This document shows positions 12,834 through 43,783 of a stretch of 64,000 nt of DNA, piece after piece. The stretch covers positions 808,501 through 872,500 of the forward strand of contig CM040093.1 in NCBI GenBank assembly GCA_022496805.1. The letters run 5' to 3'. The translations under genes and the position numbers were made by a program. The notes beneath the pieces were generated by a model, which had not been told where the DNA came from, did not search any database, and saw only the letters and a program-made list of their open reading frames with translations. The stretch's first letter is position 1. Every line of letters begins with the position of its first letter. This stretch comes from Pohlia nutans (taxonomy: Eukaryota; Streptophyta; Bryopsida; Bryales; Mniaceae).

Positions 12834-13300
12834 TTTTTCCAAATTTAGAAAATTTACTATTTATAGTAAAAAATGCGTCTTATTACCGTGGGACCCTATT
12901 ACCGTGCTTTAGTTTTATTATGGATAAATTTCACTATTTTCAAGTTTACTTCCCTGAAGACGCATAAAATTCCTAAAAAAGTGTATCATTTCACTAGGTT
13001 TGCTGATTTAGGGACCCTGCCGAAACTTTTGTTTTTTGATCAAGCTTGAGTGCCATCAATTGGGTCTCGGGCCCGAGACCCATACCCACACCTAATCAGG
13101 TTGATCAAAGTTATATGGCGTATGGACGTTGCTGATCAGAATCTTTTAATAATAAAAGGTTTTTTTTTTTTTTTTCTCCAGAGTCATAGCGTGACTATAG
13201 AATGACGTCATGCATCATTACAAAATCCTACATGGCCCAAGCTCTAGGGTTGCCACGAGTCTACGTAGTAGGCTATAATTCATAGATCAACATTCTAATT

Positions 13301-16300
13301 CTAAACTGTTGTTTTGATGATTTCAGCAGCTTCAAGAATCTTCTTTGTTTCGTCGAAGCTAAGGGTAGGGGCATGCATGAACTTGTCATTATCAAAGTCT
13401 AGTTTGCAAAAGAACCGAAATACGTAATAGATATGCTTGCAGTTGACATAAGCACCACACTTGCCAACACTTGAACCGTTCATGCTAACAAAGTGTGGGC
13501 AAGTGCACGATGGAAAGTTAGACAATGTGACGTTGTAAACTTTCTGATCTGGCTCCACTCTAGACTACATTGTGATGACTGCACCAAGTCCAGGATATGG
13601 AATGATCTTCACCGCTTGGATTATAGCCTTGACGTTCCTTGCACTCTCCCATTGGTTGCGATGGGCCTCACACAGAGCTTTAGGACTGCGTCGAACGGTC
13701 TTGCCGCCTTGAATAGAAGGAACTTTATCTGCGTGAGCGGGTTGAGGATAATTCCAGACCACGGGCTCAAATATATTGGAGGTCGTAAAGAGGCGGCGAG
13801 GTGACATGGCGGTTTTAGCTTGCAATCGAAATCCTGCCTCTTCCAATTCCATAATTTCTGAACGTGTGAGGTCCGTCCCCACTAGAACGGGCCAAATGTC
13901 AGGGATGTTGGGTCGCGTTAGTACGTGTCCACGCTTGGGTCCCATGACACATCGAGCAATCTGATCAGGGCAAAACCAGAAATCTTCGGTTTTGTGTCGA
14001 GCTCCTCTGAACGTTGGAACTTGCCTCTCACCTTTGTACGTGGGAGCAGCGGTGGCCTTACCACCCTTGGCAATGACCATCTTGCACCTGATGTTTGTTT
14101 GGGCTTGAACAGCGTGGCACTTGTTCTTCGTCTTGTGCGAAATTCTAGCAATGTGCCACTCGTGAACGTTGCAATCGGTTTCTTGCACGTGCGTGACGTG
14201 TGGCATTGGAGAAGTAACCTCTGGAATCGGTTGAAGTTGCACTCTTGCAGAAGCGGATCTTGTTTGGACTCGAGGATGTGAGAAGTTAACTTTGTCCGGG
14301 CGATGCGAATCACCCTCGGACCCAATCGGGAGGTCCAGCTTCCTTTTAACAGATCCAAAGAGCTCCTCTCCTTCTAAATGAGGGACTCGTGTACAAACGT
14401 CCTCTGCTCCCGGCATTTCGCTAAGGGCTTGGGCAATCTTTTTTCCATCCAGCGACGCCATTGCCCGCTTAAGCTTGAGGTCATGCTTCGAGGGGCCCTT
14501 CCCAGATGCGCCGCCACAAAGATAGGAGCGGTAGTTGGCCATTTGCATAAAGGCACGGATCCAGTTGTCACAAGTAGCTACAAACAAGTCGGTGCCTCGC
14601 TTTCCGGACGCTTGAAGCCACTTATTGTGAACTGTCTCCGAGAGGTTGCAGGTCGGAATCTCAGCAAGTTCGTCAGGGGTAAGGTCCTGTTTCACATTTC
14701 AACAAGGAAGAATGGTAAGTGAATGGGGTTTAGATATAGAATAGCGATACATAAGTGCAAATGAAATGAGAGTTCAACATTAGTCTCACCGTCTCCATGA
14801 ACCCTCCCCATTGGCGATAACGAAAGTGCCAAAATGCTAACCAATCTTCCAGTTCTCGGATCGAATCTTCATCAGCTGCACCAGACGAATACCACCAGGC
14901 CTTCAATTGCAAGTACATCTAATCTGCTTCTGCCATGGTTGTGGCATCCTTGTATTGCCGACAAAGCCGAATATGTTGTGCTTGGAACACCTTGGCATTG
15001 TGCTTTTCGGTATGCTTGTGCATGGAGGTAGCCCAATGGAAAAGGCAAGTTCGTTCGCGGTCCACCATAGGAACTTTGGGGTCACCCGAACCATATACAG
15101 TTCGTACAGCATTGAAATTGGCTTGTGCGCTATCGCACATGAATCCTTTGAAATCTGGATTGGGCACACCATTGTCTTTCATGACGTTATTCAAGCAATT
15201 CCAAAATATCATCTGGCCTTCTGTACCCTCGGTCTGCATATCACACACTGCAATAGTCATCACTTTGCAATATTTTGAATCATACACATGGCACGCTAGC
15301 GTTGTCCACGACTTCACCCTCTTCACGTGATCAAACATCACGAAACAATGTTCGAGATCGCCTTCGGGTTGCATTCGTCTCACAAGATCAACGCCGCTGC
15401 CAGGACCGTCAACGAGCATTTTGAATAAGTATACTTTGTCTTTGCCTTGTCCAGGGAACACACTGTCGTGAATAAACTCGATCTTTGCATGACTCTTCAT
15501 AGTAAGAATTCGGTCTATCTCGCCAGCACCTTTCAGCTTATCGCGATATGTAGCAACGATGTTGCGAACACTGGGGGAACTGAGGAGTTGGAATTTATCC
15601 ATAACTTTTTCTAGAGCCTCTTCGCGGAGCATCTCCTTGGGTCCGTCCCCATTGTGAATGAGGAACGTCTCCAAAAATTCTTTGCTTGCAGCCAGTGCAA
15701 TCGCAGAATTCTTTGCCGAAGGAGTCTTGGCCACCTCTTGAGCAATCAACTCTGTTACAGTCTCCATAGTCTCCCTGCATTGTCCTTCAGTTACCGGGTG
15801 TTTGTGATTTCCTAAATGGATGCACGCTCGCGACATGTTACCAGCGTTGACCACGTAATAGATACGAGCTGCACAAAAATCAATGCAGGTAGGGGGCTTC
15901 TTGCAAACCTTGCAAACTAGTGAAGAATCTGCAGGGGGGTCTTGACATACACCAAAAGGAAGTGTAGTGGTGCCATACCACTCCGTCTTGTTCACCTTTG
16001 AAGTCCTCGCAAAGTAATCACAATCTTTGTTCTTGCAAACCAAATGTCCCACGCAACTCGACCTTTTGAACTTCAAACCTAGGTTGTTGTGGATATTAGA
16101 CGTCAATGTGCGACACCATGCGTGACCGTCGTAGCGCTTGTCCATTCCCTCCATAGAAGAATAAGCACTTCCACGACAAGGTGGCAATTCAAACACGACG
16201 TTTCCATCGAACTTGGTGGGAAGGAATTTGACTTTGTGATACTCGACAGCATCAAAATCTATTTGAGCTAATTCGTTACGACAACGTGGAACACTGGACA

Positions 16301-16934
16301 GCTTTCTAAGGCACTGCATCACACTCAAACACTCTGAAGATACTGGAAATACTGGAGGAAGAGACCAAGATGACGAGGTAGGAGTATTGGCTGGAGTGCG
16401 AGTTCTAGAGGGAGTATTAGATGAAGAGGGAAAGGAGACTAATTTACTTGGATGTTGACATGCACGTGAGGTCGAGCGAGTATCTCCATCAGACTCAAAA
16501 GTCAAATCAATTAATGGTTCCACTCGCTCCTGCTTGACATTGCAAAGTTTCATCATGATATTAGTCACAGAACGTCCTTGGTCAGAGGACTGATGACTAT
16601 CGGCACGTGAAAGAGGTAGTTGAACAGTAGAACCATCTGACATGGGTGCAAGGATCTCAGTGGACGCAGCTACTGTCTCAGGAGCTAAACCATACGCTCT
16701 ATATTGCCCAGGATGGAGAAGCCAGTAGAATCCTTCCTTATCACTACATTTTGACTGTAAGATTGCCTCTTTGATGACTCCATAGTTGGCTAAGACCTCT
16801 TCCTCCAACATGATGGAAGACTCACAAAAACCAAAACGAATATGCAAGAGATGGGCAGGCACTCGGACAAACCCTTCTTCACCAATCGGCACCTTCAAGG
16901 GGACATCGTGACCTGCAGCAAGGATGTTGGCCAT
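13301..16934 (-). pseudogene. MULE transposase with zinc-finger N-terminus and SWIM domain (two in-frame TAG codons)
   Basis: Exon 1 runs 16934-14790 and exon 2 14686-13301, joined across a 103-bp GT-AG intron; the phase is kept and the structure matches the second copy at 51528-55206. The product would be about 1176 residues. It has a Cys/His-rich region (RYDGHAW at about 267-273, C294, C300, C305, CKVC 341-344, then CIHLGNHKH at 371-379), reminiscent of the WRKY-GCM1 zinc-finger group of MULEs. A MULE-like DDE region follows, with FDHVKRV (D about 535), FMCDSAQANF (D about 601) and CLFHW (C630, H633). At the C-terminus lies a SWIM finger (CTCPHF...CKHIYYVF). Residues 139-145 (EPLIDLT) resemble a SUMO-interacting motif. 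TAG stops at 14919-14921 and 13565-13567 interrupt an otherwise unshifted frame, so the copy is probably inactive. Assignment to MULE rests on motifs, the 9-bp duplication and the SWIM domain. Confidence 0.8.
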
Positions 16935-17502
16935 GGAAAGTAGGCAGTGGGCTAATGTGAATCTAATAGAACTAATATGCGTAATACATAGAGGACAGTA
17001 CTAATGGGGAAGTGAGATGCAAATGAAGCCAAATGCATTGAAGATATATACAATAGTACAGGGGAAATAGGAATCACAATAATTCAAGGTACGACAAGGC
17101 TTCATGGGTCTTGACGGCGCTCTAGTCTAAACTTGACGCACAACGTGGCTGTCAAGAGGAAATGAAAATTGCAAGGTGGAAAGATTGACAAGAGCCTTAT
17201 TAGTGTACAATAAATAATTAGTACGTGATTGATTGGCATTGGTACATGCTGTCCGATTGTATTATTGGATAAGCGCTGATGTTTGCCATCCACGACTAAA
17301 CAAATAATGTGAAGTGTCATATAAAAACTTCATTAAACGAGAATGACCTCATTATGATGGCAGTTCACAATCAATCATCTCGGAAGTAGTATTTATTCCA
17401 TACATCCATTGTTGTACATACATGACTGGATGAAAGCACAAATCGTGCAAATCCACATGAAACAATTCTAACATGGATGCATATGATATTCCTCTGCACG
17501 AC
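16935..17502. other. Region upstream of the MULE transposase
   Basis: About 570 bases between the transposase start and the next minus-strand ORF. It presumably contains the transposase promoter. No long frame or clear motif is seen. Confidence 0.4.
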
Positions 17503-17961
17503 CTAGAACTGTTCCATGGCGTCCCAAAAGGGAGGTTTTGCTTCATCGTCAAAAAAATCTTCTACTGCATCTGCGATCTCTTTTGGCACTATTCTTATGT
17601 CGTCGCACTCAATATTGCATGGGTCAGGAAGGCCGAGCATGTTGCAGACTTCATGACACCACATAAGACGCCATACTAAGGGATGCCTTGGCTTGTCACC
17701 CCATATTCCGCAAGGAACATCGTATTGGTCGAGAATGTCTTTGTCCAGCAGAATGATTGCCTTGTCAATTAACTGATTGTCAGAGCTGGGCAACTCGGAC
17801 ATCCAAAGCTCAATCGCTCCTTGCACGGACTCAATAGGGTATGCCATTTGAATCTTGCGGCCATGCATGAAGTACTCAGGGTAATCCTCGACATCACGAC
17901 ACCATAATGGTCCCCACATCGCCTCGATTGAATCCATGGGTGATCCTTGCCCGTATGTCAA
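17503..17961 (-). CDS. Small accessory ORF of the MULE, possible ParB-like relative
   Basis: A 152-residue frame in the same orientation as the transposase and 570 bases upstream of it. Its residues MWGPLWCRDVEDYPEYF resemble MWGPFWDEENEKFNKYL of the ParB-like exon of the methyltransferase-like gene. After both comes a hydrophobic segment ending in an ILLD or IVLD motif. It lacks the DGNHR motif. The C-terminus is acidic (VEDFFDDEAKPP). Just upstream on the minus strand lies an 18-T tract and a plausible AG acceptor, so this may be the last exon of a longer gene. No domain is recognised with confidence and the function is unknown. Confidence 0.45.
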   Translation of the reverse strand: MTYGQGSPMDSIEAMWGPLWCRDVEDYPEYFMHGRKIQMAYPIESVQGAIELWMSELPSSDNQLIDKAIILLDKDILDQYDVPCGIWGDKPRHPLVWRLMWCHEVCNMLGLPDPCNIECDDIRIVPKEIADAVEDFFDDEAKPPFWDAMEQF

Positions 17962-18641
17962 AAAAAAAAAAAAAAAAACTCAAAAGCATAAAGACACCAT
18001 CAATTCAAGTGGCATGAAATTCCACCACATGGTCTCATGTTATGTAGGCGTTCAGAGGTGCGTAAACCATAATTATAACATCATGCTTTCATCATGTCAG
18101 ATGTCCTAAGTCACATCCATATGGAGAGGGTTAAAGGTCAGAAGCGGCAGTTAGCAATTCGGAATTGGCGTACAGAAGAAAATAGTATGATGAGAGGATT
18201 CGTAAATCGTGTCAGTAAACATTGGAGATATAATAGCTATGATGTCTCACATGAGCATCGTCATGGCTCTGACAATAAGATTGGACTTCATTGTGAAGCG
18301 AAAGACGGCGCTCACAGACTATATTATTGGATATTATCCATCAAAAGCTAAAACATTTAGCATGCCTAGGTGTCAATGTATTATTGTCATGATATTTGGG
18401 CATCTAGTTGTTATTTATATTATAGTCCCGCAAATTTGAATGGGAGAGACTTTCGTCAAATACTTTTAGATGAAGTGTCTGAAAACGTATATAAGAGCAC
18501 AATACCAAGGCCTGGAAAATCATATCAGATGTAGTTTCTCCATGTGATGGATCTTTGTCAGTGTTATTTAGTGTTTGGAGTTTTCCATTGTTTCTAGTAT
18601 TTAAGTTGGCGCTCTAGTAGTGTAGAATACCTTTTAGACAG
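17962..18641. other. Inter-ORF region of the MULE
   Basis: It starts with a homopolymer A run of about 19 bases (17960-17978) and then holds AT-rich sequence with no supported frame. It separates divergent ORFs and may be a shared promoter region. Confidence 0.4.
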
Positions 18642-18989
18642 ATGCTTGACAGAAACTGTCATCTTGAGTTTGAAGGACCTAGTGGACCAAAGAAGAAAAA
18701 GAAAAGGCGTCGTCTAATGTTTTCAAGCAAGCGAGCATTGGAGCGGTCAAAGATGAGACCCCCCAAACTCAAGCCAAAAGTGAGGGATGTTGATTACTGC
18801 TCACCGATGAGTATAGACTTTGGGGACGACGATGTGGCAGATTTGGCGTCCTCTCAAGATATCCTGACATTGAGCGACATGTTAGACCATGCGGAATCAC
18901 AGCAAGACATTATAAGTGACAGTGATGAAGGATGGCAACATGTAAGTGATGACCCCTCCATCTGTATAGGATGTGCAACAATACAATAA
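18642..18989 (+). CDS. Small basic-then-acidic ORF inside the MULE
   Basis: A 115-residue frame with a strongly basic N-terminal third (GPKKKKKRRR, then SSKRALERSK), which looks like a nuclear localisation or nucleic-acid-binding segment. A serine/aspartate-rich acidic part follows (IDFGDDDVADLASS, DIISDSDEGW). It is divergent from the minus-strand ORF at 17503-17961. The second MULE has a comparably placed ORF with a basic N-terminus (56415). A good donor (CAT/GTAAGTGA near 18940) suggests it may continue into another exon. No family is recognised. Confidence 0.4.
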   Translation: MLDRNCHLEFEGPSGPKKKKKRRRLMFSSKRALERSKMRPPKLKPKVRDVDYCSPMSIDFGDDDVADLASSQDILTLSDMLDHAESQQDIISDSDEGWQHVSDDPSICIGCATIQ

Positions 18990-19599
18990 ATTAGATAAAG
19001 TCTGCACGAGGCGTGATTGAATTATTTCCACACGAAGGAAGATAATTCCAATTCTACATGAGGTAGATAGTAAATATACGTGAGGCTAATACACGAACGA
19101 GGGGGTGGCCAATGGATCCCACCGCTGTACATGTGGTAGGATGGCGTGCATTAACTGAGCCTCCATTAGGGTTTTGGTCTCAAGCTCGTACATAATGCGT
19201 TCACTCGTGTTTAGGTTTTCAGTCTCAAGCTCGTACGTGACGGTGAGTGTCTCCACGCTGGAGGTACCAAATTGTAGCTCGTGTATTCTATATGCTTGCC
19301 ATACTCTCAACTTTATTGCTCACTGATGCATCGCGTGGGAAATTTGATGACAGGGGAGATTAAGCGCGGAGGTTGGTGAAGGCGCCACAACTTGCAGTAC
19401 GATGCGGATGACGAGGCAGAAGGCGCACGTCACCACCGATGATGGCAACCCTGGAGCTTCCGCCCCTGGCTCAAGAAATGAGGAGGTGGGTCTGCTCTCA
19501 ATTTCCTCTCGTGCTGAATGATTAGGGTTCGTGCGTTCGTGCGTTCGTGCGTTGGCAGTGCGTTGCTCGAATTCGAGTTGGTCGATCTCGCGTTGGAAA
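18990..19599. other. Transition into the minisatellite
   Basis: Non-coding sequence within the MULE. It includes GTGCGTTC direct repeats near 19530-19550 and an AAACCCTAA telo-box-like motif near 19605. No supported gene. Confidence 0.4.
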
Positions 19600-22270
19600 G
19601 CTTAAACCCTAATCTAGTGCTCGTCATGCTCGTCACGCTACTGCTCGTCACGCTCGTCACGCTCGTCACTGGTATTGCTCGTCACGCTATTGCCTTTACG
19701 CGCTCGTAGTGGTGCTCGTCACGCCCCTATAGGTTCTGGTCATGCTAGTATTGATTGTCATTGAGCTCGCCACGGCAGTGCGTTGGTCGAATTCGCGTTG
19801 GTCGATCTCGCATTGGAAACCCTAAACCCTAAACTGGTGCTCGTCACGCTCGTCACGCTATTGCTCGTCACGCTACTGCTCGTCACGCTCGTCACTGGAA
19901 TTACTCGTCACGCTACTGCCTCACTGGTATTGCTCGTCACGGTGGTCTTCACGGTAGTCTTTATGTTTGTCACGTTGGTTGGGGATCAGACCCTGTCACC
20001 GAGGGTGGAGCATCGGGGCCGACGGTCCAAACTTCCAAGTTTGACTTGATCAAATCCTCACTGGTATTGCTCGTCACGCAATTGTCTCACTGGTATTGCT
20101 CGTCACGCAATTGTCTCACTGGTATTGCTCATCACGCAATTGTCTCACTGGTATTGCTCGTCACGCTATTGCTCGTCACGCTATTGCTCGTCATGCTACT
20201 TCCTTTACTCGCTCGTAGTGGTGCTCGTCACGCCCCTATAGGTTCTGGTCACGCTAGTATTGATTGTTATTGAGCTCGCCTCGGCAGTGCGTTGGTCGAA
20301 TTCGCGTTGGTCGAACTCGCGTTGGAAAGCCTAAACCCTAAACTGGTGCTCGTCACGCTCGTCACGCTATTGCTCGTCACGCTACTGCTCGTCACGCTCG
20401 TCACTGGTATTGCTCGTCATGCTATTGTCTCACTGGTATTGCTCGCCACGGTGGTCTTCACGGTGGTCCTATTGTTTGTCACGCTGGAAGGGGGATCAGA
20501 CCCTGTCACCGAGGGTAGAGCATCGGGGCCGACGGTCCAAACTTCCAAGTTTGACTTGATCAATGCCTCACTGGTATTGCTCGTCACTGGTCACGCAAGT
20601 ATTGATTGTGATTGAGCTCGCAAAGATACTCGTCACACTTGATGCTGATGGTACTCGACCCGCTCCTGTTGGTGGGTCACGTTTTTACTGGTGTTAAGGT
20701 GCTAGTATTGCTAGTCACACTGGTGTTGGTACTCGTGACGGTGGTCGTCACGTTCGTCACACAAGTATGGGATCTCGAATTCGTGTTGGTCGATCTCGCG
20801 TTGGAAAGCCTAAACCCTAGACTGGTGCTCGTCACGCTCGTCACTCTATTGCTCGTCACGCTCGTCACGCTATTGCTCGTCACGGAGTTGCTCGTCACGC
20901 TCGTCACTGGTCTTGCTCGTCACGCTACATGCTCGTCACTAGTCTTGCTCGTCACGCTTCTCACTGGTCTTGCTCGTCACGCTCGTCACTGGTCTTGCTC
21001 GTCACGCCTTTACACGCTCGTAGTGGTGCTCTTATTATTGCTTTTATTATTTCTTGTCAATGGTATTGCTCGTCACGCTCGTCTTATTATTTCTTGTCAC
21101 TGGTATTGCTCGTCACACTCGTCACTGGTATTGCTTGTCAAGCTTGTGGGTGATCAGACCCTATCACCCAGGGTGGAGCATCGGGGCCGACGGTCCAAAC
21201 TGCGAAGGTTGACTTGATCAATGCCGTCACTCAAGTATGGGATCTTGAATTCAAGTTGGTCGATCTCGCGATGGAATGCCTAATCCCTAAATTGGTGCTC
21301 ATCACGCTCGTCACGCTCGTCACGCTATTGCTCGTCACGCTCGTCACACTATTGCTCGTCATGCTCGTCATGCTATTGCTCGTCACGCTCGTCACGCTAC
21401 TGCTCGTCACGCTACTGCTCGTCACGCTATTGCTCGTCACGTTCGTCACGCTACTGCTCGTCACGTTCGTCACGCTACTGCTCGTCACGCAATTGCTCGT
21501 CACGCACTTCACTAGTATTGCTCGTCACGCTCGTCACGCACGTCACTGGTATTGCTCGTCACGCTCGTCACGCTATTGCTCATCACGCTCGTCATTGGTA
21601 TTGCTCGTCACGCTACTGTCTTTGTACGCTCGTAGTGGTGCTCTTATTATTGCTCTTAGTATTGCTCGTCACGCTGGTGGAGGATCAGACCTTGTCACCG
21701 AGGGTGGAGCATCGGGGCCGACGGTCCAAACTGAGAGGTTTGACTTGATCAATGCCGTCACGCTCGCCTAAATTTTCGTCGCGCCCTTGTAGGTTTTGGT
21801 CACGCTGATCTCGCTCGGAATTAGTTCTAGAAGCACTCCTCTCAAGCTCACAGCGCTTCTCATCACGCTAGTCTTAAGTTTCATCATCACTCGTCATCTT
21901 CAAACTGGGCTCCTGTTGTTGCAATTACTCAAATCCTGGACGCTCGTCACGTTGATTCAGTTGGTGCTCGTCACGCTCGTCACTCACTCGTCGAGCATCT
22001 CACGCTGGTGATGCACGTCACGCACCAATAGTGTGTTAGGATCAGACCCTGACTCCGAGGGTGTAGCCACGTCACGCACCAATAGCGTGGGGAGATCAGA
22101 CCCTGACTCTGAGGTTGGCTGAGAGATGAGATGGCCACTTGAGGTACCATGAGATCAACCCCTGCTGCCGAGGGTCAAGGCTCGGCCCCGACAGTCTAAA
22201 TTCAGGAGCCTAGGTTGATCACTGCCTTGCTCCGATGGTAGAGCTTCGGGACCGATGGTCCAGACTGGCA
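19600..22270. repeat. GCTCGTCACG minisatellite, block A
   Basis: Dense tandem 9- to 18-mers built on GCTCGTCAC, with fillers such as GCTATTGCTCGTCACG and GGTATTGCTCGTCAC. Every 450-660 bp the array is broken by a conserved core containing TCGGGGCCGACGGTCCA between a GATCAGACCC start and a TTGATCA end (near 19984, 20493, 21152, 21682 and 22150). Telo-box AAACCCTAAAC motifs recur after GTTGGAAAGC or GTTGGAAACC phrases. Long frames exist on both strands only because the unit lacks stops. Confidence 0.9.
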
Positions 22271-23625
22271 TGTAGACTTTGATAAACTAGAATTGATACT
22301 CGTGATACTCGTGCTCGTGATACTTGTTCTCGTGATACTCGTGATACTAGTGCTCGTGATACTCGTGGTCGTGGTCGTTGTGCTTGTGCTCGTTGTGCTC
22401 GTTGGCAGTACCCAAGATATTTTGGTGATCTAATTGAAGCTCCAAGGGTGAAGCCTCGGGGCCGATGGTCTAGTCTGGCATGTAGACCTTGATCAACTAG
22501 AATTGACGACGGTAGTCTTGGAACTCGTATTGGAACTCGTGTTAAAACTCGTATTGGAACTCGTATTGGAATTCGTATTGGGACTCGAATTGGAACTCGT
22601 ATTGGAACTCGTAATGGTCGTAATGCTCAACTCTCTCAGTAGGTGCTTGTCACTCTCGTCATGGTGGAACTCGCAATTGTGGAACTCGTAATGGTGGATC
22701 TCGTAATGGTGGAACTCGTAATGGAACTCGTAATGGAACTCGTAATGGATCTTGTAGTGCTCGTAATGCTCGTGGTCGTTGTGGCAGTAGTCGTTGTGAT
22801 CGTGTTGCTCGTGTTCAAGGTGCTCGTGATACTCGTGCTCGTGGTCGTTGTGCTCGTGCTCGTTGTGCTCGTTGGCAGTACCTAGGATTTTTGGGTGATC
22901 AAACTGAAACTCCAAGGGTGAAGCCTCGGGGCCGATGGTCCAGTCTCGCATGTAGACCTTGATCAAATAGAATTGATGGTGGTACTCTTGGAACTCGTAA
23001 TGGAACTCATATTGGAACTCATATTGGAACTCGTATTGGAACTCGCATTGGAACTCGTATTGGAACTCGTATTGGAACTCGTAATGGTCGTAATGCTCAA
23101 CTCTCTCAGTAGGTGCTCGTTACTCTCGTCATGGTGGAACTCGCAATTGTAGAACTCGTAATGGTGGATCTCGTAATGGTGGAACTCGTAATGGAACTAG
23201 TAATGGAACTTGTAGTGCATGTAATGCTCGTGGTCGCTGTGGCAGTAGTCGTTGTGGCCGTGTTGCTCGTGTTCATGGTGCTCGTGATACTCGTGCTCGT
23301 GGTCGTTGTGCTCGTGCTCGTTGTCCTCGTTGGCAGTACCCAGGATTCTTGGGTGATCAAACTGAAACTCCAAGGGTGAAGCCTCGGGGCCGATGGACCA
23401 GTCTCGCATGTAGACCTTGATCAAATAGAATTGATGGTGGTACTCTTGGAACTCGTAATGGAACTCGTACTGGATCTCGTAATGGAACTCGTAATGGAAC
23501 TCGTAATGCTCGTGGTCGTTGTGCTCGTGGTCGTGTTGCTCGTGTTCATGGTGCTCTTGATACTCGTGCTCGTGGTCAGTGTGTTCGTGCTCGTTGTGCT
23601 CGTTGTGCTCGTGTTGCTGGTGTCT
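22271..23625. repeat. CTCGTAATGGAA minisatellite, block B
   Basis: A different unit family, (A/G)CTCGTAATGG and CTCGTATTGGAA, with GTGCTCGTGGTCGTTGT-like segments. It forms three homologous higher-order copies of about 460 bp starting near 22440, 22905 and 23365. Each contains a version of the conserved core (CCTCGGGGCCGATGG followed by a TTGATCAA). Confidence 0.9.
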
Positions 23626-25720
23626 TGATCAATGCCGTCACTCAAGTATGGGATCTTGAATTCGCGTTAGTCGATCTCGCGATGGAATGCCTAATCCCTA
23701 AACTGGTGCTCGGCACGCTCGTCACGCTTGTCACGCTATTGCTCGTCACGCTCGTCATGCTATTGCTCGTCACGCTCGCAACGCTACTGCTCGTCACGCT
23801 ATTGCTCGTCACGATCGTCACGCTACTGCTCATCACGCACTTCACTAGTATTGCTCGTCACGCTCGTCACGCTATTGCTCGTCACGCTCGTCACTGGTAT
23901 TGCTCGTCATGCTCGTCACGCTATTGCTCGTCACGGAGTTGCTCGTCACGCTCATCACTGGTCTTGCTCGTCACGCTACATGCTCGTCACTGGTCTTGCT
24001 CGTCACGCTCGTCACGCACGTCACTGGTATTGCTCGTCACGCTCGTCACGCTATTGCTCGTCACGGAGTTGCTCGTCACGCTCGTCACTGGTCTTGCTCG
24101 TCACGCTACATGCTCGTCACTGGTCTTGCTCGTCACGCTCGTCACGCACGTCACTGGTATTGCTTGTCACGCTCGTCACGCTATTGCTCGTCACGGAGTT
24201 GCTCGTCATGCTCGTCACTGGTCTTGCTCGTCACACTACATGCTCGTCACTGGTCTTGCTCGTCACGCTCGTCACGCACGTCACTGGTATTGCTCGTCAC
24301 GCTATTGCTCGTCACGGAGTTGCTCGTCACGCTCGTCACTAGTCTTGCTCGTCACGCTACATGCTCGTCACTGGTCTTGCTCGTCACGCTCGTCACGCAC
24401 GTCACTGGTATTGCTCGTCACGCTCGTCACGCTATTGCTCATCACGGAGTTTCTTGTCACGCTCGTCACTAGTCTTGCTTGTCACGCTACATGCTCGTCA
24501 CTGGTCTTGCTTGTCACGCCTTTACACGCTCGTAGTGGTGCTCTTATTATTGCTCTTATTATTTCTTGTCAATGGTATTGCTCGTCACGCTCATCACTGG
24601 TATTGCTTGTCACGCTTGTGGGCGATCAGACCCTGTCACCCAGGGTGGAGCATCGGGGCCGACGGTCCAAACTACGAAGGTTGACTTGATCAATGCCGTC
24701 ACTCAAGTATGGGATCTTGAATTCAAGTTGGTCGATCTCGCGATGGAATGCCTAATCCCTAAACTGGTGCTCATCACGCTCGTCACGCTCGTCACGCTAT
24801 TGCTCGTCACGCTCGTCATGCTATTGCTCGTCACGCTCGTCACGCTACTGCTCGTCACGCTATTGCTCGTCACGCTCGTCATGCTATTGCTCGTCACGCT
24901 CGTCACGCTACTGCTCGTCACGCTATTGCTTGTCACGTTCGTCACGCTACTTCTCGTCACGCAATTGCTCGTCACGCTATTGGTCGTCACGTTCGTCACG
25001 CTACTGCTCGTCACGCAATTGCTCGTCACGCACTTCACTAGTATTGCTCGTCACGCTCGTCACGCACGTCACTGGTATTGCTCGTCACGCTCGTCACTGG
25101 TATTGCTCGTCACGCTCGTCACGCATTTGCTCGTCACGCTCGTCACTGGTATTGCTCGTCACGCTACTGTCTTTGTATGCTCGTAGTGGTGCTCTTATTA
25201 TTGCTCTTAGTATTGCTCGTCACTAGTATTGCTCGTCACTGGTATTGCTCGTCACGCTGGTGGGGGATCAGACCCTGTCACCGAGGGTGGAGCATCGGGG
25301 CCGACGGTCCAAACTGTGAGGTTTGACTTGATCATTGCCGTCACGCTCGCCTAAATTTTTGTCGCGCCCCTGTAGGTTTTGGTCACGCTTGTCATGATGC
25401 TCGTTGCTGTGGGTACTGCCCTCACTCGCTACGGTGCCCGCGTCGCTCGTAATGGAACTCGTAATGGTACTCGTAATGCTCGTAATGGTACTCGTAATGC
25501 TCGTAATGCACGTAATGGATCTGGTAACTTAGGGTGCTACACTTGCGTTCTTGGTTCTCGTCACCTTTTGTGTTAGTGCAAGTCACGTATGTTGTTTCTT
25601 TGTGCTGATGGTGTTCTAAACAGCGGTGCATGGACTCGTCACGCTCGTCTCGCTTCCACTACTTTAGGTGCGCGTATTGGTCGAGTTAGTGCGGATCTCG
25701 CTCGTTGCTTCTCGTACCAC
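23626..25720. repeat. GCTCGTCACG minisatellite, block C
   Basis: The block A unit returns. Within 23900-24500 a further higher-order unit of about 120 bp, alternating GGTCTTGCTCGTCACG and GGTATTGCTCGTCACG with CTACATGCTCGTCAC, is repeated at least four times with few changes, indicating recent amplification. Conserved cores occur at about 24626 and 25265. The array frays out in GTAATGGTACTCGTAATG repeats near 25450-25520. Confidence 0.9.
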
Positions 25721-26063
25721 GTGACTGAGATTGCTTGACACGGACGTCTGAGTGCTTGTAGTCATCGTTGTTGTGCGCTAGTATGGGTGCTCGTAACTAT
25801 AGTGTTCGTGGTCGTCAATGGCGTTGTTGTGGGTGCCAGACTCACTTGTGTAGTTGCTCCTCAGGCTCGTATTGGTGAACATCATGCTTGATGTGGTTCA
25901 CGTTGCTAATGTTGCTCATCACCGCGGCGTTGGAAATTCTCACGCTCACGATAGACCTCGTCATGTTGTTGGTGCTCGTCTACGTCGTGTTGGAACTCGT
26001 GATGGTGCTCGTTTTTGAGGGTACTATACTCGCTAGTTAGAGCTCGTGTTTTGATATTTTGTC

Positions 26064-26099
26064 ATGTCTATGGATGAATGTGTAATTTGTTTCGTGTGA
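26064..26099 (+). promoter_or_regulatory. Short upstream ORF overlapping the methyltransferase-like gene start
   Basis: An ATG at 26064 opens an 11-codon frame that ends at TGA 26097-26099, overlapping the ATG at 26078 in another frame. If transcription starts upstream of it, it could reduce translation of the main frame. Alternatively the true start lies in an unrecognised upstream exon or at a later Met (residue 91). Confidence 0.4.
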
Positions 26100-29000
26100 A
26101 GGATGATATCTCACAAACGCCTGAGCAGTTGGCGGGTGAGGATAGCCCTGGACCTCAACCCTCTTTAGATGGTGGAGATTTAGACGCCGCAGATCATGAT
26201 GTAGAGGAGGTTGACAATGATGAAGCAGCGTTGGGGGCAAGCGAAGATGTCATACGAAGCCGCCAGAAGTTGAATGCTGTAGCAACAATTGCTAACCTCC
26301 AACTCCAACCGGTGCATATATCCCGGCATCACATCCCATTGTGTAGAATGGTTGTGATGCCGATGGTGAGACCTACTCTCTCATGTGATTTGACAAAACT
26401 CGAGGAAGAGTTTGTACATGGCTATAGAGATGGTGCAGCTGTTTTCTATGTCTCTCTTACCAATGAACAAGGTGATATTCAAGAGGTCAGTGAGGAGGAC
26501 AAGGTGATGTGGGGGCCATTTTGGGATGAAGAGAATGAGAAATTCAACAAATACCTCCGTGGTATTCCAGGGATGCAACAGTATGTTAATCGGATGTTCT
26601 TTGTGTGTGATGGGAACCACCGTAGAATAGTTTGGATGAACCACATTGAGAGGCTGCATAAGAATGAGCCCTCATGGCACTACTCCGTTGATGCCATCGT
26701 TCTTGACACTAAAGGACGGATTGGTCTTGTCATGCAAGTTATGCATGACATCAATAAGTGAGTATTTTCTCACACAGCAATCACTTGGTTTATGCTCTCT
26801 ATATATTGTTTTATGACTTGTGTATATATGATTATATGACGTATTCTTTTACTTAATGCTTCATTGTAATCCTATTCTCTTTAATTGTATAATTTTCTTT
26901 TTCATTGTATTCAAATTCTCTTTCATTGTATTCATTTTCTGTTTCATTGTATTGATATAGACACACAGAGGATTCACACGTGAAGACCAGTTTGGTTCAC
27001 ACGTTGTTCAGGATTAAGAAGTATGGTGTAATGCCATTGGAGATGTTCAATGAACTCCTCTCTCCCGTAGAGATATTGAAGTGTAAAATGAACAATTCAA
27101 AGCGTTCATGGTACCATTTGTCTGTTGAGGTGTTCACGGCCTTCATATTTCGGGTACATGCTTTACTTCTCTTATCAATTTTGTCTTTAACATTTTCACG
27201 AACGTGTGTGAAATGAATAATACTAATTGTGTTGAAATTGATTGTGCATGTTTAGCATGAGATCGTTGTTGCTGCTGATTTTGCTGCTCGACTGCATCGT
27301 GAACAAACCCATCCTGACGATACATCTGCTGGGAGTATTGCTGCCGCTATGCATGCAGCAATTAAAGAGAAGACGGCCAAGCTGAGCATCAAGCTGGGGA
27401 AATTGGCTGCCGTTGCAAACCCTGCAATTGGGGATGACTTTCTCAAGGAGGTATGAATCAATTTAATTTTTTTTTGTTTAAATGATATGGAAATTCAAGC
27501 ATGATTCTAATTGTCATGATAAAACGTTGCAGATTGAGAGACATTGGACGTTGAACTCCACCCCCGAGATAACATTGGAGAAACTTCAACTCATTGCTAC
27601 TTCTAATGTAGCTCCCGTTCATAAGGTTAAATGTATAAAACTGTTCAACTCATCCGTGGCAACCCGTGAAGCATCTCGTTTCCCTCCCAAGCCTTTGAAC
27701 GAAGAGAAGTTGGGAATATTTCTTGTCAAGGCTTGTTGGTGGGCTGGGGTATGATATTCATACACTATTTAATCAACTTGAGTTCATGTGCTCTAATTTT
27801 TGCTCAAGATTTATATTTGAGTTCTAGTTGGGTTTGTGATCAACGGTTTACAAGGTTACTAATTAATATTTATGAATATACTTTACGAAATTGCAGATTG
27901 AAGAGAAGGCAGTAGAGTACTTTGATGATATTGTTCGTGCTGATAACATTACCATCTCCATGGACTCTCCTCTTGAGCCTCTATCGTTGAGCGCTTTCAT
28001 AGAGGAGTGGCGGATTCGACTATGGGACCATGCCTTTCTAACTTACTTCAAGGAGCATGATCATTTCAAGAAATCTGAGGATTTCTCTACATTCAAGGGG
28101 TCTGACATTGCTGTGAAACGTGTGATCTTTAGGTGTGCTCTAAACAGTTACTACATTCTTTTATTATGTTTCTAATTTATGATGTGAACTTTAAAACTCA
28201 TTATTGAGTTGTCTATTGAGTATGAATATGAATTTGTTTTCAAATTGAATGAGTGTTATCAGTTGACACGGATTTTTTTAATGCAATGTGAATTGTATGT
28301 CATTATTATTCTCACATTAAGTCAATGTATGATTGTTCGTTGTATATTTAACTAACATTGAAATGTTGTAGATATTTCAAGTTTGAGCTTCTTCCCAAGA
28401 AGGCCATTACAAAAGAACATCTCCCTGTCTTCCTCAACACTTGGTTGGACCGTTCTTCAGACGCTTGTATGTTATCGCCGGCTCAGCTGCGTACGTGGAC
28501 TACTGCGCATCTGAACTCTGGCGCTTGGTACCTGGATTGCAGCACATCTTTCACGCCAATCCAGGAGATTGAGCTGAAGCGGAATCAGGAGGCAGCGGCA
28601 ATTGCAGCTGAAGACATCATTGAGCTTGCAGATGTGGAGGATGACGAAGCCAAAGAGAAGGCGGTGAAAAAACGGGAGGAGTCCGATCGTAAGAAGGCTC
28701 AGAAGGTGAAGGACGCTGCTGAGAAGGTCGCCTTAAGGGAGAAGGAAAGGATTCAGAAGGCTGCAGAGAAGGCAGCAGAGAAGGCAGCAGAGAAGGAGAA
28801 GGGGAAGAAGAAGACCGTTGAACCTGCGAAGAACGAGAAGGAAGCTGCAGGCGCCTCTTCTACAGTGGACGGTGGTTCTCAGTTACAATCGACCCCCACC
28901 CGAGGTACTAAGCGTGATTCTCCCTATGATTTTCTCTCTCAGGGCCCATTGGCGGTTGACCTTGGACGAGTGGAGGACTTCACCAATGATGAGTTCATAG

Positions 29001-31026
29001 TGAACACATCATTGGGCCAGATTCTTGGAACTGGAACTGGTCCATTGCCCCCGGTTTATGACGACTTGAAGGCATTTATGAAGAAAGTAAGTGTTTTTTT
29101 TATTTAATTTGAGCAATTTTGATTTCAAATGTTTTCTACAATCAATGTAATTAATAATATGAGCTCTTGGAAGTAAATTCATTGATTACTATGTTTGTGT
29201 ATAATTTGTTCCATTATGATTTGAAATGTGTTCATGTATAAATCAATCAAAGTGTTTAAATCCTAAACTGTGCTTTTGAAACTACGATTGATGAGTGATA
29301 TGTTTGTATTTCAATGGTTAAAGTTTGATTTGAAATGTGTTCATGTATAAATCAATCAAAGTGTTTAAATCCTAAACTGTGCTTTAGAAACTACGATTGA
29401 TGAGTGATATGTTTGTACGTCAATTGTTCATGTTTTGTTTGGATTGTGTTAATGCATAAATCAATCAATGTGTTTAAACCCTAAACTGTGCTTTTGAAAC
29501 TAACTTCATTGATTGTCTTCTTTGTCTTCTAGCACAAGAATGACAAGTCCCGGGCGCATAAAGGTGACTTGAATTCCAGGGGATTAGTGGACCTCATGAT
29601 CGTGGATATGCCTGAGGGTCTGGCAGTCCCAGGCGTATCGAATCCTGCCTCCACCGTTCCCAAGTGGAACCAAGAACCTCGGGAATTCTTGCAACCAGTT
29701 TTCGATTCTGCAGATCAACACTTGCAGGATGATGGTGCTCTTATTATTATTTACCCTTTTCGATCAGCTACAAAATCGAAGATCTTGGGTTACTGCAAGA
29801 GCTATGGATTCGAGGTGAAGAAGGACTGGTGGGGAATGAACCGTCTTCACCTGACATCCCCTACCAATCCGTTGTTGACGGTGAGTTTGTTTATAAAACT
29901 AATGTTGACATTGATTTATTTTGAAGTACTTTGTATATGTTTTCCTAAACTTATGTAATTGTTTTTCTTTTGCAGACCAATCGCTTTGGCATTTGTTTGG
30001 CGATCAGGGTTAATGGTAATTGGGATCCATCCTCTTTTGCATTCCAGCCAGTCCCTGCGCTTCTTCGTAACGGAGTAGATGTTGCACGTGACGACATCCT
30101 CCAGAACTACATGGGCAAAGATGACCAGTTGATGAACAGGGAGGTGCCATGGCGAGGACCGCGAGAGAAATCTACCTTGTTCATGCAGATGCTCATCGAG
30201 ACATGTTCTTTTCCAGGCGACGTGGTGTTGGATTGCACTACCGCGAGTGGTTAGTAATTCAATCTCATTCTAAATGATATGTTCCAATTTTTGTCATTGT
30301 ACATTGATTACATTTGTTTACTATCTCTCATGTATTTTGTCTACGTTTGTCTACTATCTTTCAATTTTTGTCCTTGTAGTATGTTTACATTTGTCTACTT
30401 TGTGATTGTTTTTGCAGGCGCCTCTATCCTCGCTTGCCGCAATGTGGACCGCCACATCGCAGCGCTAGAGGAGGACAAGGCTATATTTGATGCGGTCCTT
30501 GCTCCTCTCATTCGACCCGCTGTGACTCGTAGGCCTCACCAACCGAGGGTTGTTATTGGCTTGGATGACATGGACGATGAGGACATTGTAGCGGAGCCGA
30601 TTGTGAAGAAATCCCGATTCAGTAAGTAAGTCGGTTTATGTAATTACTTTGCATTATGATTTGTAGTTCTTTGCTCGTGGTTTATTTTTCAGTATTTCTA
30701 ATACTATGGTTTTTATTGCTTTCAGATGCGGCGGACTAAGTGCTCCAATTCATCGACCTTTCTTCTCTAATCCCGAGTTTTTTCCTAGTCCTCCTAAACC
30801 CTTCGCACTGCCGTCTTATGCAGAAGGAATTGCAAGACAGTTTGTAGAGCAGTGTATTTTTGATCGTAGTCCACGCCCCGTGTTTGTTTCTGCTCGTGTT
30901 TTAGAGTTTGTTGATCAGGAGGCAGCTGAGTCTGATGGTGAGGCATCCGGTAGTGATTGTAGTGACATAGAGGGGTCTATGTCCGGATCTTCTAGTCCCA
31001 CGGCTTCATTTGAGGCTTCGCCATAG
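26078..31026 (+). CDS. ParB-like domain fused to a divergent beta-type DNA methyltransferase domain, ten exons
   Basis: Exons by GT-AG sites and phase: 26078-26757, 26961-27153, 27256-27450, 27533-27748, 27897-28132, 28372-29086, 29533-29880, 29976-30249, 30418-30625, 30726-31026. The frame is open over about 1121 residues. Residues 85-225 resemble the ParB/sulfiredoxin fold, with FVCDGNHRR at 175-183. A helical middle follows, then a charged Lys/Glu/Ala coiled coil in exon 6. Exons 7-9 form a methyltransferase fold in beta order: motif IV equivalent IVDMPEG (768-774, in place of DPPY), a REKS...LI segment (924-934), then the SAM-site equivalent VLDCTTASG (945-953, in place of DPFxGSGTT) with RHIAALEED. 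Both catalytic signatures are altered, so methylation activity is doubtful. It lies in the large MULE, divergent from the transposase. The ATG overlaps an upstream 11-codon ORF at 26064. An alternative donor at 30622 would end the protein at 30739. Confidence 0.78.
29224..29510. repeat. 109-bp tandem repeat in intron 6
   Basis: Units start at about 29224, 29333 and 29442, each carrying ATAAATCAATCAA and CCTAAACTGTGCTTT. The first two are nearly identical and the third is diverged and partial. They lie wholly within the intron between exons 6 and 7 of the methyltransferase-like gene. Confidence 0.9.
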
Positions 31027-31088
31027 CTCTATACTCTTGAGTATTGTGACTATTATGTGTTATTTGACACAGATGTTTCTATTGGATT

Positions 31089-31113
31089 GTAGTGAGACTA
31101 AAAGGGCCACTAC
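31089..31113 (+). promoter_or_regulatory. 25-nt 3' element with GTAGTG/CACTAC stem (methyltransferase-like gene)
   Basis: It lies 62 nt past the stop codon. It opens with GTAGTG, closes with the complementary CACTAC, and has the loop AGACTAAAAGGGC. An identical 25-nt sequence lies at the same relative place after the second MULE transposase (51447-51471, minus strand). Position suggests a role in mRNA 3' end formation or stability; this is inference. Confidence 0.6.
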
Positions 31114-31587
31114 CACTTTATTTGCATTTGTTGTCCATCTTCATATTTGAATGGTTTCACTCTTATTCAATCACTCTAACTCAATTCTATGTGCTGTCAT
31201 AAATTCTTGTACATTGGGTTTCTTGATACAAACTTTGAGAATTGAAAACATAATCTAAAACTACTCACATTTTGGTCTTTAAACCCTAAACCCCTAAACA
31301 CTAAACTCACAAACATCAAATCAATTAAAAGTCTTACTTTTTGCAAAATTCTAACACATTGAACTTCTTTATAAAACTGTTGACTCCACATTAGAATGTT
31401 ACATGCATTTTCATTATCACTACATTTCACACATTTATCAATTTTGCCTAACTAATTTTTTTGACATACAATTTGCCTAAAACCGCACACATGTTTTCTC
31501 TATTCCATTTAAACCGATAGAAAATAATGCCTAAATCCCAAAGCCCACGGTCATAGGTCCACCAAAAAAAATTTGAAAAAAACTGAA

Positions 31588-31657
31588 AAATTCTGTGGGC
31601 TCTCAGGCTCACCGGCTCCCGGGCTCACGCTCCCAGGCTCACATGCTAGCACACCCG
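31588..31657 (-). repeat. Right TIR and subterminal GTGAGCC repeats of the large MULE
   Basis: Read inward on the minus strand it begins CGGGTGTGCTAGCATGTG, followed by GTGAGCC units and a GAATTTTT tract, matching the left end with substitutions. The 9-bp duplication AATAGGAAG follows directly at 31658. Confidence 0.85.
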
Positions 31658-31666
31658 AATAGGAAG

Positions 31667-35215: not shown

Positions 35216-36283
35216 ACACGTGCGTTCAAGACCTATTTATTGGGGGGCTATTTACCTTGCAGAAAAGATTATAAAGTATGATATTTTTCAAAATAAAGGT
35301 AAATGCTTGTATTTTAATACACCCTATCAATAATTATAATTCTTTTAGGGAACCATTTAAAAATACCCTATTTTACTTATACTGCATTTTTTCCTTATAC
35401 CCTAAGTAACCAATTCTTTTGACTATACTCCATTTTTTTCTCGGATCCCAACTATTGTCTATTTCTTTCTTACACCGCATTTTGTTTCTTATATTCCATT
35501 TTTTCCCTCCTAGCACATAGGTAGAGAACACTAACACCACATTGGGATACGTTGGTTCAGTAACGTTCAAGCCAGTCAGCTTGCGAAGTCATCCATCCAA
35601 GCTTTTTCAATAGAAAATTACTTCTTTTCATCCACTAGCACAGACCCTATCCTAAACCCGCTACCCCTAGTAATTGTTTCCACGCTATTTTACATATACT
35701 GATTAGATAAAAGAGGCCATTATATGTGACGGTATTTTATATGTAAACATGTTTCACTATTTTAAAGACCCCCATATTATATGTACGTTTTTTGCAAAAA
35801 TTATCTATAATGAATATATTAGACCCTATTTTTTATCACACGTTTCTACAATTTTCGACAGTGCTGTCCCCGAGGTTAAGTCTTTGTGAACTCTTGCAAC
35901 TTTGGACTGTCGAATATTCCCTTTCTTCTGGACTGCCTTATGCTTGCCACCGTGGACGGATGGAGTTTCACCATAGGCTCAACGATGCCAGAACCGAGCG
36001 AATTCGAATAGCTCTTTTGCAGATATTGTAACTGCCCCGTAGCTCTTAGTATGTCACTGCTTGAAACCGTCTTCTCGTGATAAAACTCTAAATCTCCTAT
36101 CATCAACAACTTGTTTCTTTTCCTGCTAGGAGATCCCGTAAGTATTATGTTCCACGCTCCTTGCATTCCACAAATTTAGAGCTATACTGAAATGATTTTT
36201 TCACTTGTTTGATCAATCCCTCACCAAGGTAATCTTTGCTATATTATCTGGACAACTTCATCACGAACACTTAGACCAGTTGT
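35216..36283. other. Intergenic DNA, possible exon remnant
   Basis: It contains the minus-strand 96-codon frame 35876-36166 with ordinary amino-acid composition but no recognised motif. It could be a remnant of the gene carrying the WRC exon. The rest is AT-rich. Confidence 0.3.
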
Positions 36284-36915
36284 GGGTGAAAGCACGAAAA
36301 AGTGTACCACCTCTAACTCTTATGACCATTCAACAATGCAGGGTTCAAAAATACATTATAAATTTTAATTTCGTATAAAAAATAAATAACAATAAAATAA
36401 AACACCTATTGTTTTATAAAGTCTACCAAAAAAATTTGAGAAAACAATCTTCAATAAGTAGTTATAAATTTTTTATTGGCGTAGAAGTGGCAAAATTGAA
36501 AAAGTAGTTACGTATAATCAACAAAGTTGATATAAAACAAGCAAAATGTATATAAAACAAGCAAAATGTGTATCAAACATATTTTTTTCTACTTTCTTTT
36601 TGGAAAAGGACCTCAATTCTATCATTATTTCAAAGGTCATAAAAATTATATTTATGTTGAGTGTATTTAAAGCCATCAAATTTGCAACCAAGATTGGATT
36701 TAGGCATTCATTTTCAAACACTATTTTTTGTAAACTTTTTTGAAGATTTTGTTCTGAAAATTTGAGTTCAAGTACCTATAAGAACTCTAGAGGGCTTCAT
36801 GAAATTAAAACCAAAATACAATATATTTTGATATAAACTTATGGCCTTTGACCAAAACAATTATGATTATACTATAGCGAACTAACTTTTTGGTACAATT
36901 TTTGTGCTTTCACCC
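36284..36915. mobile_element. MITE of the GGGTGAAAGC family, copy 1 (632 bp)
   Basis: The segment begins GGGTGAAAGCACGAAAAAGT and ends with the inverted counterpart (GTGCTTTCACCC). It is closely similar, in opposite orientation, to 41958-42571 along its whole length. It encodes no protein. No target duplication is recognisable at this copy (TTGT against TCAT). Confidence 0.75.
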
Positions 36916-39962: not shown

Positions 39963-40839
39963 TACATGAAATTGCAGCTATGGCATGGCGGAAACAACTG
40001 AAAATAAAGCAGGAGAAGAGACGAGATTGTTCAAAACTCTAGAGCGGAGGATGAATCGATGGCTGCAGAAGCAACAACAAGTGAAAGGAAAACAATCTAA
40101 GGGCGAGTGAGACGCGAGCCAACACAAACAAGGAAGGATTGCCTCCCGCGTCACTAGAATGCGAAGACCTTGAATGTTCAGGGGCGACCTGGACCCTCCA
40201 CCTTTCTGGATCGATCGGAGGGCTCGTGGAGGCCGAGCTGGCAGAATGGGGCAGGAGCTGGCGCATGCTGGGGCAGGCAACTCAGGTCGGGCAGGCTGGT
40301 CAATATCGCTTGACAGTTCACCACGCATGTTGGAATTTGCCCCAAGTGCAGAGACTCATTATTTTCAGCAGTTTTGAGCATGTCATATAGACAAACTTTT
40401 TGTTCAAAATTTTATCGGTTTTTGGCCAAACACATACAATGTTCTTCACTGCTTCCGGTTATATAAAATTTGGTCCCATTTGAAATATATTTTTCACAAT
40501 ATGATCGATTGCATTCATCAATTCAAAACAACGAAACATTGGTCCTTTTGGGGGTAAATTTGATTCCAACAATAAATTCTACCTATGGACCCTGTACGAG
40601 GAATACGCTGCATGCAACTCAACATCATTCACATGACAAATTTTTTTGTATGTGATTGCAATCATCGTTCAATATACTTTTCCAAAAGCAGTCCGAAACT
40701 AGATTCTTGCCTCAAACATACACAAGCTTGGAAGAATGGGAATGGGAGAGGGCACGGGAGAGGGAAAACATGGAGCAAAATTGCCTACAGGAAGACCATG
40801 GAAAAATAGTACAACAATGTAGAATTGTCTTATTGGAGC

Positions 40840-41957: not shown

Positions 41958-42571
41958 GGGTGAAAGCACAAAAATTGTACCAAAAAGTTAGTTCGCTATA
42001 GTATAATCATAATTGTTTTGGTCAAAGGCCATAAGTTTATATCAAAATATATTGTATTTTGGTTTTAATTTCATGAAGCCCTCTAGAGTTCTTATAGGTA
42101 CTTGAACTCAAATTTTCAGAACAAAATCTTCAAAAAAGTTTACAAAAAATAGTGTTTGAAAATGAATGCCTAAATCCAATCTTGGTTGCAAATTTGATGG
42201 CTTTAAATACACTCAACATAAATATAATTTTTATGACCTTTGAAATAATGATAGAATTGAGGTCCTTTTCCAAAAAGAAAGTAGAAAAAAATATGTTTGA
42301 TATACATTTTGCTTGTTTTATATCAGGCTTTGTTGATTGTACGTAACTACTTTTTCAATTTTGGTCACTTCTACGTCAATAAAAAATTTATAACTACTTA
42401 TTGAAGATTTTTTTCTCAAATTTTTTTGGTAGAATTTATAAAACAATAGGTGTTTTATTTTATTGTTATTTATTTTTTTATGAAATTAAAATTTATAATG
42501 TATTTTTGAACCCTGCATTGTTGAATGGGTCATAAGAGTTAGAGGTGGTACACTTTTTCGTGCTTTCACCC
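41958..42571. mobile_element. MITE of the GGGTGAAAGC family, copy 2 (614 bp)
   Basis: Inverted relative to the copy at 36284-36915 and closely similar throughout. It begins GGGTGAAAGCACAAAAATTG and ends GTGCTTTCACCC. It is flanked by AGTG on both sides (41954-41957 and 42572-42575), a likely 4-bp target duplication. Non-coding. Confidence 0.82.
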
Positions 42572-42575
42572 AGTG

Positions 42576-43331: not shown

Positions 43332-43783
43332 CGTATTCCTCATACAGGGTTGATAGGTAGAATTTATTGTTGGAATCAAATTTACCCCCAAAAGGACCAA
43401 GGATTCATTGTTTTAAATTGATGAATGCAATCGATCATATTGTGAAAAAATATAATTCAAATGGGACCAAATTTTATATAACCAGAAGCAGTGAAGAACA
43501 TTGTATGTGTTTGGCCAAAAACCGATAAAATTTTGAACAAAAAGTTTGTCCATATGACATGCTCAAAACTGCTGAAAATAATGAGTCTCTGCACTTGGGG
43601 CAAATTCCAACATGCGTGGTGAACTGTCAAGCGATATTGACCAGCCTGCCCGACCCGAGTTGCCTGCCCCAACATGCACCAGCTCCCGCCCCATTCTGCC
43701 AGCTCGGCCTCCATGAACCCTCCGATCGATCCAGAAAGGTGGAGGGTCCAGGTCGTCCCTGAACATTCAAGGTCTTTGCATTC

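Follow-up and report, generated by a model that had tools for sequence, protein, structure and literature searches.

Proteins that combine a ParB-type domain with a DNA methyltransferase domain have been described from several kinds of mobile DNA. Fusions of the ParB-CTPase fold to an N6_N4 methyltransferase are common in phages and prophages, in which they are enriched; the arginine of the Box II motif GxxR is needed for nucleoside triphosphate (NTP) binding (PMC12704722). In Ectocarpus, the 21.5-kb DNA transposon Sola1-1_Ec32 encodes, on the strand opposite its transposase, an accessory protein of 1104 amino acids with ParB and N4/N6 methyltransferase domains; green and red algal transposon cases are cited in the same account (PMC12477816). 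Mutator-like elements (MULEs), too, can carry non-transposase genes. The VANC protein of Arabidopsis binds a motif of nine bases that is tandemly repeated in noncoding DNA of its own VANDAL element, and related elements differ in these repeats (PMC5735166, PMC10398659), while mudrB of maize MuDR is a second MULE gene that is apparently required for integration (PMC6446971). Here we describe a ParB/methyltransferase-like fusion gene of the moss Pohlia nutans, found in a 64-kb stretch of genomic DNA (hereafter the window; C9:808501-872500) on a MULE-like transposon at positions 12757-31657. We tentatively read it, at somewhat less than even weight, as an accessory gene of a multi-copy MULE-like transposon whose protein recognises DNA of its own element, probably the tandem arrays in the gene's predicted intron 1, and thereby counters silencing or aids spread.

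The kind of protein is not new, since the Ectocarpus transposon paper describes such an accessory protein. As far as that account describes Sola1-1_Ec32, the moss gene shares with it both domain types, a length of about 1,100 amino acids, a position opposite the transposase and a giant DNA transposon as carrier (PMC12477816). A single transposon-encoded protein, read in the opposite direction to the transposase, has both domains, the ParB-like half being recognised by weak fold scores and its GxxR box. The moss carrier differs from Sola1-1_Ec32 in being MULE-like and is flanked by a duplication of 9 bases. A first exon with a run resembling a nuclear localisation signal (NLS), a 7-kb predicted intron with arrays and a non-canonical motif IV are further features of the moss gene, the algal proteins being compared by their description. 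With the phage and prophage fusions it has the same two domain kinds in one protein; it differs from them in being split by introns, about 1,213 amino acids long and furnished with long middle and linker regions. A first-pass annotation of the window had regarded such fusions as mainly bacterial or phage-borne and a plant version on a MULE as unusual. Among the titles and abstract openings listed in literature searches there was no land-plant transposon with a ParB-methyltransferase protein, though one may still exist. Apparently new here are the MULE-like carrier, the land plant host, the NLS-like first exon, the non-canonical catalytic site and the intronic array.

Borders and classification of the element

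The limits of the element are marked by a 9-base direct repeat, AATAGGAAG, which occurs exactly twice in the window (12748-12756 and 31658-31666) and whose copies directly flank inverted ends of about 115-136 bases. Because this target site duplication directly borders the inverted ends, the element is taken to span 12757-31657, or 18,901 bases. The left terminal inverted repeat (12757-12892, plus strand) contains GTGAGCCTA sub-repeats, and the right one lies at 31543-31657 on the minus strand. The two ends have diverged; their local alignment scores 77, against a maximum of 49 among 492 random pairs. Homology to another element copy, of 12,143 bases and flanked by a 10-base duplication, starts at 12757. 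On the right, homology ceases at 31651-31658 in 14 of the 20 gene bodies fetched, and a scan of 19 gene bodies showed an identical terminal motif, followed by differing flanks, in 10. The element ends are conserved between copies.

The duplications of 9 bases in the window copy and 10 bases in the second copy fall within the 8-11 bases of MULEs, and the terminal inverted repeats are long, as in that class. Profile searches of the transposase returned no Pfam or NCBIfam match; by eye, it has a D...CDSAQAN...CLFHW pattern, which we take to resemble MULE transposases. Judged by duplication length, ends and this motif, the element is MULE-like, in agreement with the carriage proposed in the first-pass annotation.

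Exon structure of the fusion gene

The ten exons of the first-pass annotation all have GT-AG borders and join in phase into 1,121 codons with a sole, terminal stop, and the other two forward frames of the joined sequence contain 56 and 99 stops. The annotated phase was therefore sound, and the annotated start was wrong. The ATG at 26078 is rejected as a start because it or the next codon is lost in many copies, an acceptor just downstream is kept, and an overlooked upstream exon is in phase with that acceptor. Counting from 26078, 11 of 14 class II copies (defined by their array unit, see below) have a stop codon at residue 2, and 4 of 5 class III copies have a residue other than Met at position 1. 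Of 39 aligned copies, 38 have the acceptor AG at 26100-26101, and L026 has AA there. The upstream exon is a 100-codon open stretch at 18642-18941 (plus strand) ending in CAT/GTAAGT, with its donor at 18942 and a phase that matches 26102. In blastn comparisons with two copies, homology stops 6 and 9 bases beyond its border.

The fusion gene is predicted to comprise 11 exons and 1,213 codons, with exon 1 spliced over an intron of 7,160 bases (18942-26101) to position 26102. Exon 1 codes for a basic run, PKKKKKRRR, which resembles an NLS, and import of the protein into the nucleus is predicted. Genome searches covered an assembly of 697.8 Mb in 332 contigs. For exon 1, 150 copies were scored of 484 candidates, and in 87 of these best 150 the ParB exon follows within 12 kb in the same orientation, at a spacing of 2.0-11.4 kb (median 5.0 kb). 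Flipping the strand gave 0 such pairs and the wrong order gave 1, with 0.32 expected from random placement.

All later exons are on the plus strand. Exon 2 (26102-26757) holds the likely ParB/Srx-like domain; the exon is supported by its borders, phase and conserved acceptor, and the domain by a fold model and an alignment. Exons 3 (26961-27153), 4 (27256-27450), 5 (27533-27748), 6 (27897-28132) and 7 (28372-29086), the last with a charged Glu/Lys/Ala-rich linker, were placed by GT-AG borders, phase and comparison of copies, as was exon 11 (30726-31026), which encodes an acidic C-terminal tail and the stop. Exon 8 (29533-29880) contains the motif IV position of the methyltransferase-like half (DMPEG), exon 9 (29976-30249) the start of motif I (DCTTASG), placed by borders, phase, profile and relatives, and exon 10 (30418-30625) the remainder of motif I and motif II (HIAALEED). 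Splicing of the later exons is supported by relatives: the Ceratodon proteins P0001 and P0002 join exons 8 and 9, P0002 also joins 9 and 10, and the frames P0006 and P0016 read through an intron at the 9-10 position.

The ParB-like half

The sequence DGNHR occupies residues 178-182 (numbered from ATG 26078, as below) and contains a Box II of the form GxxR (GNHR). Across 81 aligned proteins Arg182 is present in all 81 and the Gly in 80. The same alignment, of 81 of 121 proteins with the window copy included, was used for AlphaFold modelling of the ParB exon, and the mean predicted local distance difference test score (pLDDT) rose from 36 with the single sequence to 58.4; over residues 121-190 the block means were 75-90. 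When this model was searched with Foldseek, ranks 1-15 were all Srx, ParB or Noc, with weak scores; 22 of the 23 VIA rows were ParB, Noc, KorB, PadC, Srx or ParB-like serine kinases, and a mycobacteriophage DNA methylase gave a weak structure match at rank 21 (E 0.52). The model and the conserved box agree with the ParB-like region first proposed, and the N-terminal half likely has a ParB/Srx-like fold with an NTP pocket at GxxR.

A weak ParB-like Box II fragment (FFVCDCNHRS; E 0.014 and 0.0099) also occurs outside the element at 40594-40674 on the plus strand, and is possibly a decayed copy.

The methyltransferase-like half

The motifs LMIVDMPEG (residues 766-774) and VVLDCTTASG (residues 944-953) stand in the order IV to I, which is that of beta-class N6/N4 methyltransferases. 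PF01555 matches the C-terminal piece at 27.6 bits (cut-off 26.7; E 3.4e-6), the match covering only the motif I end, and phage methyltransferase families also match, phrog_498 aligning from motif IV through motif I (E 1.3e-4). From these features the C-terminal half is predicted to resemble the N4/N6 methyltransferase fold in beta order.

The protein could accordingly be imagined as an active amino-methyltransferase, writing N6-methyladenine or N4-methylcytosine on element DNA under the guidance of the ParB-like part. The two profile matches and the selection acting on the domain would fit such an enzyme, which has been proposed in print for the algal relatives (PMC12477816). Against it, the full-length protein scores only 22.2 bits with PF01555, below the cut-off, and the catalytic site is non-canonical. 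The catalytic tetrapeptide of N6/N4 DNA methyltransferases is [DNS]PP[YFW] (DPPY), and it is absent from all 17 gene bodies and 6 relatives read. At the motif IV position, 12 of the 17 gene bodies have DMPEG, the remaining 5 have a closely similar sequence and none has D/N/S-P-P-aromatic; the six relatives covering the site have DIPEG (twice), DMPEG, DQPKG, DQPEG and NLPKN. Because the tetrapeptide is missing throughout, ordinary DNA methylation is doubtful, the C-terminal half is classed as methyltransferase-like only, and we regard an active enzyme as unlikely. The fold named in the first-pass annotation is thus upheld by profile and motif order.

Relatives were found when the protein was searched by piece: 16 among 1,405 candidates for the methyltransferase-like half, and 365 among 503 candidates in a second search. 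The 16 include two proteins of Ceratodon purpureus, with 53% and 59% identity. One of these is tagged M758_UG251900, and its 112-Mb contig is presumably the U sex chromosome. The full-length protein retrieved nothing from 5.8 billion proteins among the best 7,997 word-sharing candidates, and scans of viral and prokaryotic contigs with the fusion protein gave no relative. A six-frame search of the moss genome with PF01555 gave 0 matches among the best 150 of 230 candidates, which we explain by the introns that split the domain.

Copy number, pairing with the transposase and selection

The ParB exon has at least 150 copies in the genome (best 150 of 1,501 candidates). The transposase of the window element is encoded on the minus strand by a main open frame at 14919-17000 and, after a predicted intron, by a 3' part at 13565-14698; across 414 columns, this part and a second family (51795-53015) are 42% identical. 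The main frame, read leftward, stops after 693 codons at an in-frame TAG (14919-14921), so the first-pass annotation was right in calling it broken. The genome search for it gave 65 rows (64 candidates scored of 2,817, two rows being halves of one copy). Among these best-scored candidates 52 rows span nearly the whole stretch 14919-17000, and 26 of the 52, the window excluded, are stop-free over it, with an open frame longer than 693 codons. In 60 of the 65 rows the transposase lies head-to-head with exon 1 of the fusion gene at a spacing of 0.56-3.27 kb; neither of two other arrangements tested yielded a single pair, all 150 exon-1 rows being used. Given the number of ParB-exon copies and this pairing, the gene is a regular component of this transposon.

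A 158-codon open frame at 17503-17979 (minus strand), upstream of the transposase, is possibly an extra transposase exon or a third gene, and had no family match in the profile search.

Of 20 gene bodies, 16 were kept for alignment (L032, L039, L045 and L050 were dropped as incomplete). Compared with the divergent copies L047-L049, at synonymous divergences (dS) of 0.65-0.77, the ratio of nonsynonymous to synonymous substitution (dN/dS) is 0.11-0.12 for the whole protein; the ParB/Srx stretch taken alone gives 0.03-0.06, and the methyltransferase-like stretch 0.16-0.20. Exon 1 gives 0.14-0.17 against two copies, and whole-gene values are 0.17 against L046 and 0.26-0.43 against twelve close copies. 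Copy L048 has no stop and no frameshift, keeps nine intact GT-AG pairs and is open over 1,117 codons at a dS of 0.66. These ratios and the intact L048 support selection on the open frame, as first suggested; judged from the aligned copies, purifying selection acts on exon 1 as well as on the ParB-like and methyltransferase-like parts.

Individual copies are also decaying. All nine GT-AG pairs of introns 2-10 are intact in 12 of the 16 gene bodies, and 14 of the 16 have 1-5 stops, frame-changing indels or both, which on sequence grounds matches decaying transposon copies. L042 has neither a stop nor a frame-changing indel, but an altered donor. The Box II Arg, or the Asp preceding its Gly, is altered in six copies (L034-L037, L042 and L043), and these changes are read as decay.

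Such damage would also be expected if the gene were a passenger captured in the manner of a Pack-MULE, or had come from the element and been domesticated by the host, rather than part of the element's own machinery. Extra open reading frames are described as frequent in MULEs and as often assumed to be host-derived (PMC6446971). At least 150 dispersed copies in regular pairing with the transposase, a whole-gene dN/dS near 0.12 across divergent copies and the long open frame of L048 are not what a passenger would leave, and we consider this origin very improbable.

Tandem arrays in the predicted intron 1

Tandem repeat makes up 48.5% of intron 1 in the window copy. The arrays lie at 19600-25260 and contain 129 of the 130 occurrences of GCTCGTCAC in the window, all on the plus strand and inside the element. 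Thirty copies were compared over 1.5 kb before and 1.5 kb after the ParB exon. Mean tandem-repeat coverage is 36.8% before it and 6.1% after it, and coverage of at least 20% is found before the exon in 20 of the 30 copies and after it in none; 10 copies have little or no array within 1.5 kb. The presence of any array scoring at least 80 was discarded as a discriminator. It gave 29 of 30 both upstream and downstream, owing to a short repeat in one of the later introns that also scores, and only the covered share separates the two sides.

By our own grouping, the units fall into four classes among copies 89-100% identical to the window copy in the ParB exon. The change of unit between close copies is complete, and units already differ where this exon is 89-94% identical to that of the window. 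Nine copies have a CTCGT class, 14 have class II with the unit AGTGAGCAAGGC (L003 and L007 are placed here on inverted traces, that of L003 also weak), five have a GCGTCGTG/GGTCGCCATGGTG class and one has the unit CGTGTTGCTCGTG; the remaining copy has no array. The classes mostly track clades of the ParB-exon tree, L007 and L018 being among the exceptions. In two elements that are more distant the units differ once more, measuring 181-182, 35 and 30 bases in L055 and 331 bases in L056. A noncoding array ahead of the ParB exon thus recurs in these sequences while its own sequence turns over. The observed/expected CpG of the window array is 1.27, the highest of 11 stretches compared (the others 0.40-0.95), and no inference is drawn from it because CG is part of the motif itself and a further array class is poor in CpG (0.29-0.56).

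Possible role of the protein

The moss gene resembles VANC in encoding a non-transposase MULE protein and in being accompanied by noncoding arrays of short motifs that differ between related elements, with 10 of the 30 copies having little or no array. The proteins are unrelated: VANC, as described, has DUF1985/DUF287 (PMC5735166), and the moss fusion protein has no Pfam match to either domain.

A transposition helper offers another explanation. Like mudrB, the moss gene is a second gene of a MULE, and it might act with the transposase at the element ends or in excision and integration, the arrays then being incidental. We know of no resemblance between mudrB and the moss fusion protein. In favour of a helper are the divergent arrangement of gene and transposase seen in 60 of 65 rows and the likeness of the GTGAGCCTA sub-repeats in the ends (12757-12892) to the class II unit (for example at L009 and L015), a likeness which hints that the arrays may be seeded from element ends. 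A helper leaves unexplained why arrays are enriched by the ParB exon and why their unit changes between close copies though the ends are conserved, and we hold it to be rather unlikely.

We favour, with the reserve stated at the outset, recognition of the element's own DNA and a countering of silencing. It is suggested by the VANC parallel together with a predicted DNA-handling protein that has an array in its own first intron. The ParB-like part would load onto the intron-1 array like a clamp and spread over the element, and the methyltransferase-like half would grip DNA or bind S-adenosylmethionine rather than methylate in the usual way. The outcome would be to free related copies from silencing in trans, as VANC does for VANDAL elements. 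A wider version, which we find doubtful, is that an anti-silencing system arose in early land plants independently of VANC from a bacterial-type ParB clamp and a re-tuned methyltransferase-like domain. The intron array would then be parS-like, the clamp would spread from it, and array and protein would be engaged in a race in which each subfamily frees only itself.

If true, self-recognition would be a second answer to silencing escape, unrelated to VANC, and a eukaryotic setting for the ParB-CTPase fold outside chromosome segregation. With this locus, the known range of transposon proteins of the ParB-methyltransferase kind would extend to a land plant genome, where they are numerous and under measurable selection. 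Its layout, with a candidate binding protein, a candidate target array in its own intron and subfamilies with different arrays, makes silencing escape directly testable.

Other features of the window

A related second transposase lies at 51795-55269 on the minus strand, with 43% identity over 702 columns and split into several frames; no ParB or methyltransferase profile match was found beside it within the window. To the right of the element are two inverted-repeat pairs of 95-96% identity (36283-36915 with 41958-42572, and 40157-40607 with 43332-43783). To its left, a 1,370-codon open frame at 1778-5890 (minus strand) resembles, by eye, a Copia-type retrotransposon polyprotein, and around it is a 318-base direct repeat (at 1475 and 6833, 99.7% identical) that is like a long terminal repeat. 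Several pieces of reverse transcriptase frames at 47600-51382 (plus strand) appear, by eye, similar to those of long interspersed nuclear elements.

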